Shown piece after piece: positions 3,703 to 27,686 of a DNA stretch of 43,492 nucleotides. The notes beneath the pieces were generated by a model. The model was not told the DNA's origin, ran no database searches, and saw nothing but the letters and a program-made list of their open reading frames with translations. The position numbers and the translations under genes are program-made. This DNA is from a virus: the IMG/VR virus record IMGVR_UViG_3300045918_000356, positions 1-43,492 of that record. One strand, given 5' to 3'. Within the stretch, counting starts at the first letter, position 1, and every line of letters starts with the position of its first letter.

Positions 3703-5808
3703 TTGCTTAAAAATCTTAAGAAATTGAAAAATATGCTATGGTCTGAAAATAATGATCTCGAAACATCTTCATCCACTGCGGATCCGTCGAGTGATATTGA
3801 CAAGAAATTTGCAACACGCCTTGTTAATTTTATCGATATCGCCAAATCTGCAAAGGATGTGGAAAGCGACGATACAGGGTTGACGCTCGAAGAAACTTGG
3901 GATGATGAGTATAAGATATACAAGGGCGGTGGGCTACAATGGTCTACCAGCATGGCTTACCGTAGCAAAAAGGCCCGAAAAATTAGACCTAATAGTGAAG
4001 ATAATTTTATATTCAACATGTTGCAAATTCAGGTAGCCAATATTACTGCACAGATGCCCGAAATCAGAATTGACGGGGTAAAGAAAAAGTATGCTGACAA
4101 GGCGGAAAAATTGACCCACCTTGTCAAATTCAACGACCGCAGAAATAACTTTGATGAGCAGTGGGATGACTGGGTGACGGAGTTCAGTGGCTATGGTCCT
4201 CTTGTTGTAGAGGTCTGCTTTGATGCAGAGTGGACGGGTGGAGTTGGACCCGATCGTTGGATTGGGGATGTGAGATTAAAGCAAATAGCCAAGGAAGATT
4301 TCCTTCCTGACCCTGCAATATTGGATTTGGAGAGAAATATCAACGATTGCTCCATGATAGCGACAAGAGATAGGTGGAAAGTGTTAGCGGCACAGAAAAG
4401 GTTCCCTGATTTTAAGAAATATTTATCCGCAGAAAATAATGAAAATGAAATGGAACACGAGGGAAGCGATCCTGAAATGTTGTATGTATACAAAGTGTAT
4501 CATAGAGGATTTCCTGAGTATATGCCAGCTGATCGGGCTAAGGAGTTAAGGGAACGTGCGGCAAAGGAAGAATCCGAAGGTGATCACTACAAGACGCAAG
4601 ATTTGTATGATATGGCAAATGGAAACGTTGAGGGCGTACATCTTGCGTATGTGGCTAACAATACAGTGCTAGAGTACATACCATACGCATACGATCATGG
4701 AAATTATCCAATAGAGTTCTGCACCAGATACAGGGATGAGAAAAGTCAATGGGGATGGGGAGAGATACGTAATACCAAGATACCACAACTCATGCACAAC
4801 AAAGCCGACGAAATTGAAATTGAAGCTATGGCAAAAGAAGGGCTTGGTGGATGCTATTATCAAGATGGAGCAGTCAACCCAAAGCAACTTGAACAAATAA
4901 TTCAGAATAGCGGCGTTGGCGGCATGTGGTTTGCTGTAGACAATGTAAATCTTATAAAGGATCGTACGGGTGTTAAGGTTCCAGCGAGCATTGTAAACTA
5001 CAAGGAGCATAAACAGAGAGTCATTGAAAATGTTTCTTCTGTTACACCTATCCAACAAGGGATGGCTCCTGGTGGGAATATGCCATTTAAGGCGATTGCA
5101 GAATTGGGAGCTAGAACAGATATAAGGATCAAGAAAGCATCTACCAAGTTGTCTAATTTTCTTTCTAGACTGGCAAAACAACGTATCCTATTATTTGCAC
5201 AGTATTACACGGAAGAACGCTATTACAGATACGAGGATGCCACAGGAGAGATTCAGGAGGGTAAATTTTCTAACAATGAAATATTTGATGTATGGGATAG
5301 AGAAACACGAGAAACACAAGGTGTAGACGAAATGGGACAACCTACTATGCAACAGGAATCTAGACAAGAAAAGTTTATCCCTGATTTTGATATAACGTGT
5401 ACGGTGGTAAGCAGCAAGCCGAATGACAGGCAATATTATACCCAGCTAGCAACAGACCTACACGCCAAACAATTGTTAGACGCAGAGGATCTTTTCTACA
5501 CGCTAGATGAGGGTAAACTGCCACCAACTGAAAATATAATTAAGAAACTTATGGCGAAAGATATGTTGCAGAGTATTACATCACAAATGGGGCAATTGCC
5601 GCAGGAATTGCAACAACAGTTGATGCAACAAGTGCAACAACAGATACAGCAAATGTCCGCACAATTCCAGCAAGAGCAACAAGGACAGCAACAACAACAA
5701 CATTACCAAGGCATGCAACAAGAGGTAATTGATAGTCATACAAAAAATCAAATGAAAGCACAGATGGAAGGAGGGATGCAGAATGCCAATCAAGAAGAAG
5801 CCTACTAA
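3703..5808 (+). CDS. portal protein
   Basis: This 701-aa protein lies directly after terminase, as a portal should. It has the long alpha/beta body of podoviral portals, with motifs such as WDDWVTEFSGYGPLVVEV and PYAYDHGNYPIEFCTRYRDE. An extended Gln-rich helical C-terminus from about residue 630 (QELQQQLMQQVQQQIQQM) recalls the portal barrel of P22-like phages. It forms the dodecameric vertex through which DNA enters. The start TTG at 3703 follows GAGGTGAGGTGG. Its last 26 bases overlap the next small gene. Confidence 0.88.
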   Translation: MLKNLKKLKNMLWSENNDLETSSSTADPSSDIDKKFATRLVNFIDIAKSAKDVESDDTGLTLEETWDDEYKIYKGGGLQWSTSMAYRSKKARKIRPNSEDNFIFNMLQIQVANITAQMPEIRIDGVKKKYADKAEKLTHLVKFNDRRNNFDEQWDDWVTEFSGYGPLVVEVCFDAEWTGGVGPDRWIGDVRLKQIAKEDFLPDPAILDLERNINDCSMIATRDRWKVLAAQKRFPDFKKYLSAENNENEMEHEGSDPEMLYVYKVYHRGFPEYMPADRAKELRERAAKEESEGDHYKTQDLYDMANGNVEGVHLAYVANNTVLEYIPYAYDHGNYPIEFCTRYRDEKSQWGWGEIRNTKIPQLMHNKADEIEIEAMAKEGLGGCYYQDGAVNPKQLEQIIQNSGVGGMWFAVDNVNLIKDRTGVKVPASIVNYKEHKQRVIENVSSVTPIQQGMAPGGNMPFKAIAELGARTDIRIKKASTKLSNFLSRLAKQRILLFAQYYTEERYYRYEDATGEIQEGKFSNNEIFDVWDRETRETQGVDEMGQPTMQQESRQEKFIPDFDITCTVVSSKPNDRQYYTQLATDLHAKQLLDAEDLFYTLDEGKLPPTENIIKKLMAKDMLQSITSQMGQLPQELQQQLMQQVQQQIQQMSAQFQQEQQGQQQQQHYQGMQQEVIDSHTKNQMKAQMEGGMQNANQEEAY

Positions 5809-9874: not shown

Positions 9875-10045
9875 GTGATTGCTGGATTACTAGGACGTCC
9901 TGTAGACTCATTGACGTTGGAAGCAGCGGATATTACTCCTGTCGCTGGTGCAACAAACACTATAACTATTACAGTTGTAGACTTCAAAGGAGTTACAAAT
10001 ACAAATTTTTCAGGCACGGTTAACATAACTATATCAGGATATTAA
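9875..10045 (+). CDS. small beta-strand protein, 56 aa
   Basis: The GTG start follows GGGGGTGAT. The chain (MIAGLLGRPVDSLTLEAADI and 36 more residues) is beta-rich, with TITITVVDFKGVTN and SGTVNITISGY. It may be a half-size Ig-like virion protein or a cofactor of its neighbours. I do not recognise a family. Confidence 0.65.
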   Translation: MIAGLLGRPVDSLTLEAADITPVAGATNTITITVVDFKGVTNTNFSGTVNITISGY

Positions 10046-26663: not shown

Positions 26664-26703
26664 CAAAAAAACCTTTAACTCTTATCGCTTGGCGGCATTT
26701 TTG
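26664..26703 (+). repeat. left copy of a 40-bp direct repeat, decayed terminator
   Basis: CAAAAAAACC then TTTAACTCTTATCGCTTGGC and GGCATTTTTG match 27648-27684 at most positions. The right copy forms a perfect terminator stem; this one has lost the pairing. The pair brackets the two noncoding RNAs. Confidence 0.6.
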
Positions 26704-26813: not shown

Positions 26814-26844
26814 CTATTTTCATTTGCAATATTATTTTTGGATA

Positions 26845-27420
26845 GGTGCAAAATACGGTACCCTCCATGTGGCAGTAGGAAAGTTTCATTTGATTGCCAT
26901 TTGCAACAGAACGGTTGTTCCCGACTTAAATGTCGTTACCAAAAGTGAATATTGGGTACAAAACTGATGCCGATACAGTATAAACGAGAAGTTTGATCCC
27001 ACTCATGCAAAGAAGGGATTCGGTCTTGATCCTAGCCCTTGTTATAGGACAAGCCCGTCAAGTATACGTCAATTTTTGTTGGCGTGATGCGGAACGCGGC
27101 TTACAGCGTTGGTAGGATGCTTCTGATTGGGATATTATCACACCATATTCCCTACACTGGGAAATTGGTCTCGCTGGGCAGAATTGGCGAGTAGATAGTA
27201 AGTGTAAAAACTGTACAACAAGGTATTAACAAAGCCTCCGAGAACTCAGTGGGGATAAATTAATGGTAGTCTCGTAATCGAATAATCAAACACTTGTTCG
27301 AATTTACGGGATTACTATGTCCTGCCCCACTCAAATCTAATAGGGATAGAGGTATTAGTCGTTAGTTTGTAGTAGCTTGGAAGCCCGCCATGGCTACGCA
27401 TAGAGCACACTAACACATAT
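26845..27420 (+). ncRNA. large structured noncoding RNA, ROOL/GOLLD-like candidate
   Basis: About 575 bases hold no credible ORF but many helices: GTACCC/GGGTAC (26858/26954), CGAC/GTCG (26922/26932), GATCCC/GGGATT (26995/27015), CTTGT/ACAAG (27038/27049), ACGTCAA/TTGGCGT (27066/27079), AACGC/GCGTT (27093/27106), TACACT/AGTGTA (27153/27201) enclosing CTCGC/GCGAG (27170/27187), AGTGGGG/CCCCACT (27248/27325) and GTTAGT/ACTAAC (27361/27409) enclosing GTAGC/GCTAC (27372/27393). Size, ornate multi-helix layout and a phage setting fit the ROOL and GOLLD classes of giant RNAs. The class name is inference; exact ends and strand need a covariance search. Confidence 0.65.
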
Positions 27421-27447
27421 CAAAAAAGTTAAGCGTGAAAAAGTAGA

Positions 27448-27476
27448 TTGACAACGTGAAACAGATAGTATAGATT
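27448..27476 (+). promoter_or_regulatory. dedicated promoter of the solitary-repeat RNA
   Basis: A perfect TTGACA (27448-27453), a 17-base spacer and TAGATT (27471-27476). Predicted start is near 27483. It is one of the best -35 elements in the window and drives a region with no protein gene. Confidence 0.75.
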
Positions 27477-27534
27477 GTAATATATACACAATCTGCATAC
27501 TCCGAGGGTTAACGTCTTAGAGTCCCAGATTGCG

Positions 27535-27563
27535 TAATTCCCCACACACGTGGGGGTGAACCG
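27535..27563 (+). repeat. solitary type I-E-like CRISPR repeat
   Basis: The unit has ATTCCCCAC, loop ACAC, GTGGGG, then GTGAACCG, giving a 6-bp stem (CCCCAC/GTGGGG). GTGAACCG is the 8-base handle typical of type I-E repeats with GTGTTCCCC...GTGAACCG consensus. Only the first two bases differ from common consensus. It is a single copy in the window. Confidence 0.85.
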
Positions 27564-27597
27564 CTTAATACGTCCATAGTGGAATGTAAATGTAAGT

Positions 27598-27622
27598 GTC
27601 GCTGAAAGGCGTGGATTGAAAC
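27598..27622 (+). repeat. solitary type I-C-like CRISPR repeat with shortened stem
   Basis: The unit starts GTCGC and ends GCGTGGATTGAAAC, exactly the two ends of type I-C repeats. The middle is only six bases (TGAAAG) rather than a full stem-loop, so it is 25 bases instead of about 32. The shortened stem may be decay or may be what makes it an inhibitor instead of a substrate. Confidence 0.82.
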
Positions 27623-27650
27623 ATTGATTTCTAAAAAAAATAAGCAACAA

Positions 27651-27683
27651 AAAAACCGCTAACCTTATCGGCTGGCGGTTTTT
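27651..27683. terminator. bidirectional rho-independent terminator; right copy of 40-bp repeat
   Basis: AAAAACCGC (27651-27659) pairs perfectly with GCGGTTTTT (27675-27683). It ends the repeat RNA on the plus strand and the leftward accessory operon on the minus strand. Confidence 0.9.
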
Positions 27684-27686
27684 CCT

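Follow-up and report, generated by a model that had tools for sequence, protein, structure and literature searches.

Viruses carry solitary mimics of CRISPR repeats, the Racrs, of which RacrIF1, RacrIC1, RacrIE1/2 and RacrVA1-3 have been described, and inhibition has been demonstrated for those of types I-C, I-E, I-F and V-A (PMC10651486). RacrIF1 binds Cas6f and Cas7f, leading to the formation of an aberrant subcomplex (PMC10651486). The published SRUFinder pipeline demands 90% identity over 90% of the repeat, and full repeat matches no more than 100 bp apart are clustered as arrays and discarded (PMC10651486). No description of a multi-subtype Racr was found in the article texts searched.

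These inhibiting Racrs (PMC10651486) provide the precedent for the proposal, made in a preliminary description of the DNA analyzed here, that its repeat units could act as RNA anti-CRISPRs. The window, which is the whole 43,492-base virus record IMG/VR IMGVR_UViG_3300045918_000356, contains one type I-E and one type I-C-like unit that, like the Racrs, are viral, intergenic and solitary, follow a predicted promoter and are not linked to recognized cas genes. Unlike the described Racrs, they bring two subtypes together in one predicted RNA, and the I-C hairpin is shortened. The locus also resembles CreR/CreA (PMC12737573, PMC9458426), given that an ectopic degenerate repeat is found in a small RNA gene and that the short-hairpin I-C form is also present in cas loci. 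It differs from them in being phage-borne and of two subtypes, with no PAM-flanked seed match, cas gene or toxin gene recognized in the window. The arrangement of repeat, spacer-length gap and repeat is that of viral mini-arrays (PMC11656645), but the repeats in the window are of two subtypes and no protospacer was found in phage or plasmid records.

The locus within the phage genome

The record has a GC content of 38.6% and carries phage genes for a terminase, an SU10-type adaptor, an amidase, a holin, RecT, DnaB and RusA. The terminase is closest to those of Paenibacillus prophages (58-60% identity), and the Paenibacillaceae were taken as the closest known hosts. The putative RNA locus (27448-27684) is at the end of a non-coding stretch bordered by the lysis genes on one side and by a group of minus-strand genes on the other (Table 1). 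Neither near nor distant relatives of the locus were found in the phage and plasmid records.

Table 1. Features of the RNA locus and its downstream neighbor.
Feature	Position	Strand	Basis or remark
Sigma-70-like promoter, TTGACA-17-TAGATT	27448-27476	+	10/12 positions match the consensus; sequence resemblance only
5' hairpin of the predicted small RNA	27485-27536	+	-17.1 kcal/mol, z -3.7
Type I-E repeat unit: 6-bp stem, tetraloop, 8-nt handle GTGAACCG	27535-27563	+	Repeat match and fold
Linker	27564-27597	+	Exactly 34 nt; own hairpin predicted at 27562-27598
Type I-C-like unit: short hairpin CGCU-GAAA-GGCG, 11-nt handle TGGATTGAAAC	27598-27622	+	Motif and fold
Intrinsic terminator	27651-27683		Inverted repeat and predicted fold
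Convergent neighbor gene, 124 aa	27687-28061	-	No family match above curated cut-offs

The promoter, the 5' hairpin, the two repeat units with their 34-base gap and the terminator listed in the preliminary description were all found in place. It had also reported neither an array nor a cas gene, which agrees with the presence of each repeat unit as a single copy, with no second copy of either in the window, and with the absence of any cas family among the window ORFs scanned (20 with PADLOC, and those run against Pfam, with the small ORFs covered in part). A weak CARF-like match (E 6e-4) lies 14 kb from the RNA locus, and no acr gene was recognized near the locus by family scans, which are not acr-specific.

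Directly upstream of the RNA gene, a non-coding stretch of approximately 620 nt (26820-27440, plus strand) has a fold z of -4.5 versus shuffles; the fold of its minus strand (z +0.4) is no better than shuffles. This stretch has no Rfam match and no significant relatives, and its modeled fold makes a large structured phage RNA possible. Its upstream border is a diverged copy of the terminator of the repeat-unit RNA gene, and two related terminator-like sequences (26664-26700 and 27648-27684) flank the whole non-coding cassette, with the shared layout CAAAAAAACC..TAAC..CTTATCG..TGGCGG..TTTTT.

Predicted small RNA and its two repeat units

Along the locus, the promoter-like site is followed by the 5' hairpin, the I-E unit, the linker, the I-C-like unit and the terminator, and both units are intergenic and downstream of the promoter-like site. 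The full RNA has a predicted fold of -59.6 kcal/mol, which beats 200 of 200 shuffles (z -3.9). The terminator arms (27651-27664 and 27670-27683) have 14 nt each and are 86% complementary, and the stem is flanked by A- and T-tracts. Although this arrangement is plain, the automatic terminator scan did not flag it. The terminator is probably common to the RNA gene and the convergent minus-strand gene. Rfam gave no curated match, and its best CRISPR repeat model, CRISPR-DR9 (27596-27622), was far under threshold.

The I-E unit, TTCCCCACACACGTGGGGGTGAACCG, occurs once in the window, whereas 100 shuffles gave an expectation of zero, also when 3 mismatches were allowed, and the pair probabilities of its stem are 0.98-1.0 in the predicted fold. 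It shares 26 of 29 nt with repeats that form genuine I-E mini-arrays, with a period of 61 bp, in the viral contigs L068 and L070, and its 24-nt core is identical to these repeats. The assignment of this unit to a CRISPR repeat, on which the preliminary description depended, is borne out by this identity. In the Bacillota-type genomes reached via G006, 61-bp-period arrays with CCCCACGCGTGTGGGGGTGAACCG were found, which differ from the unit at three positions, all in the loop, with identical stem and handle. An unrelated viral contig, L069, also has a solitary I-E unit (approximately 4342-4365, minus strand), whose core is that of the window unit.

The I-C-like unit reads GTCGC-TGAAAG-GCGTGGATTGAAAC and keeps both conserved ends of the 32-nt I-C repeat. 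The pattern GTCGC-N2..20-GCGTGGATTGAAAC has one occurrence in the window, where none is expected. The unit has 25 nt instead of 32 nt because the stem-loop is shortened, and it falls short of the near-full-length demand of SRUFinder. Its stem is weak, with 4 bp that include one U-G, and pair probabilities of 0.54-0.62 within the full RNA. Cas5d cuts at the base of the hairpin and leaves an 11-nt handle (PMC3890593); in the window, the 11-nt handle is directly 3' of the shortened hairpin. Of the claim that repeats of two subtypes are carried, it stands that both units are genuine CRISPR-repeat mimics, but the I-C unit is not full length. The published survey would probably have dropped this pair, both for its neighboring repeats and for its shortened I-C unit.

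Related units in other viruses and in hosts

A scan of IMG/VR for GTCGC-N2..10-GCGTGGATTGAAAY gave 56 stretches, which correspond to 47 distinct viral sites. Of 42 short-hairpin sites, 39 form the first inner hairpin pair (2000 shuffles: mean 23.4, maximum 31), and the second pair forms in 38 of 41. Given these proportions, the shortened I-C hairpins are a recurrent and structurally constrained element, though the set is mixed: one site (L104) is among several I-C-like units and close to a sequence that weakly matches a protein of an I-C cas locus. In each of three viral contigs (L122, L125 and L145), two or three I-C units whose hairpins differ are clustered, an arrangement that the published solitary-repeat screen would discard. 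In viral contig L141 (approximately 9966-10030, minus strand), next to a tRNA-like gene, the 12 nt that follow a short-hairpin I-C unit match a TTC-PAM-flanked site just upstream of the unit, and this may be a crRNA-like phage RNA that regulates itself.

A second pair of the two subtypes was found in the 4.4 kb viral contig L115, whose DUF2080-like protein and integrase are weak evidence that it is archaeal-type. The pair reads GTCGCCCTCCGGGGCGTGGATTGAAAC, 12 nt, GTTCCCCGGCCGCCGGGGATGAACCG, that is, an I-C unit and then an I-E unit, both in one intergenic region downstream of a TATA-like stretch. In 3.5 Mb of strand, 82 RTGAACCG sites were present, and stems of 5 bp or more were limited to six sites in L068-L070, which had been retrieved by the RTGAACCG motif itself, a single site in L115 and another in the window. 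Given this scarcity, chance is a poor explanation of the L115 pair. The unit order is the reverse of that in the window and the I-E hairpin is different; these differences in order and sequence suggest that the two pairs are of independent origin. The exact heterotypic-pair scans of IMG/VR gave a sole match, L002, which was rejected as a chance match inside an ordinary I-C array, and the variant pattern (GGGG-RTGAACCG, AAAY) gave no match in IMG/VR.

The preliminary description proposed a search of host genomes for arrays matching the two units. Of 201 Paenibacillaceae genomes, 83 have I-C repeats with GTCGC...GCGTGGATTGAAAY ends, for the most part in arrays, but an I-E repeat of the form seen in the window was found in none of these 201 genomes and in none of 400 Bacilli. 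Both subtypes are present in one Bacillota-type genome, G876, which has I-E arrays that differ from the window unit only in the loop, as well as a short I-C array. For this reason, a dual I-E and I-C target is realistic in this broad group, this phage's own host aside. Beside its arrays, G876 also contains several scattered, non-identical solitary I-C repeats and one solitary I-E repeat (L171, L173, L175 and L161).

I-C arrays accompany the short-hairpin I-C unit in all seven Paenibacillaceae genomes that have one (hypergeometric P 0.0018). This co-occurrence was rejected as evidence, since most of these units are in or beside arrays or inside cas loci. The I-C cas loci at L178, L179 and L183, from Paenibacillaceae genomes, contain short-hairpin I-C units that are opposite to the cas genes and accompanied by promoter-like and terminator-like sequences. 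The L183 unit has an 11-nt seed that, next to a TTC PAM, matches the promoter region on the cas side. Judging from these sequences, the three units are probable I-C CreR autorepressors. By analogy, the presence of such units in host I-C cas loci suggests that Cas5d may accept short hairpins.

Proposed function of the predicted two-subtype RNA

The locus is probably a phage gene for a structured non-coding RNA of approximately 200 nt that serves as a bispecific RNA anti-CRISPR (Racr). We infer its transcription, processing, binding and inhibition, as well as a dual host, from the features described above. The I-E unit would offer a substrate to Cas6e, and the I-C unit would offer a hairpin and a handle to Cas5d. 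The processed products would bear the correct handle (GUGAACCG or UGGAUUGAAAC) but no usable guide, and these decoys would occupy Cas6e/Cas7 and Cas5d/Cas7 in dead-end subcomplexes. Immunity of types I-E and I-C would be blunted, either in one host or across hosts. The earlier proposal that one transcript carries both subtypes and blocks two systems is strengthened in its first part by the I-C/I-E pair in the unrelated contig L115, while blocking keeps the conditional standing it had. We give an even chance to the broader idea that viruses of bacteria and archaea have repeatedly evolved single-transcript, two-subtype RNA anti-CRISPRs, which screens miss through the array rule and the near-full-length demand.

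A serious rival, which we nonetheless regard as unlikely, is a crRNA-like regulator or guide of the CreR/CreA type, whose units would be processed normally and whose downstream sequence would guide host Cascade to silence a promoter, such as that of the host cas operon. The short-hairpin design inside the host I-C cas loci (L178, L179 and L183) speaks for such a role, as do the L183 seed and TTC PAM at the cas-side promoter region, which are as expected of CreR (PMC12737573), the 12-nt self-matching seed with a TTC PAM in L141, and the 34-nt linker, which has normal spacer length. The window itself, however, offers a TTC-flanked seed of at most 7 nt, no better than control PAMs (4-8), and the linker folds on itself and has no match beyond chance in the phage and plasmid collections. 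The sequence from the I-C handle to the terminator is A-rich, and no cas gene was found in the scanned ORFs of the window.

It is likewise unlikely that a single unit is active, with either the I-C or the I-E unit acting as a Racr and the other being a relic of an earlier host. The short and weak I-C stem would fit this explanation, as would the lack of the I-E form in the nearest known hosts (0/201 Paenibacillaceae). Against it, handles and stem bases are intact in both units, and short-hairpin units retain their pairing across the 47 viral sites.

Use of the linker as the spacer of a mini-array, together with a host CRISPR system and against a competing phage, is quite improbable. Its length is spacer-like and viral mini-arrays are known to be used in this way (PMC11656645), but the flanking repeats are of two subtypes that are processed by different nucleases. 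As a spacer, the linker has no target in the phage itself, nor one beyond chance in the phage and plasmid collections, and this role was rejected for want of a protospacer in those records. The self-folding of the linker, its lack of a target and the 12 nt between the L115 units, too short for a spacer, argue against a mini-array.

That the locus is chance or debris, a functionless fragment of decayed host CRISPR DNA, is hardly credible. Truncated I-C repeats do occur inside real arrays (L181 and L182), but both units have a chance expectation of zero in the window, promoter- and terminator-like signals lie on either side of precisely these two units, and the I-C/I-E pairing recurs in L115.

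Racrs have so far been described one subtype at a time. If the locus is indeed a bispecific Racr, a two-subtype RNA would show a viral answer to hosts, or host ranges, that stack CRISPR systems, and it would represent a compact, programmable design for an inhibitor. Judging from the recurrence of short-hairpin I-C units, a small part of a repeat may suffice to capture Cas5d. Given that the rules of the published survey (PMC10651486) probably exclude neighboring pairs and short-hairpin units, the abundance of Racrs may be underestimated.
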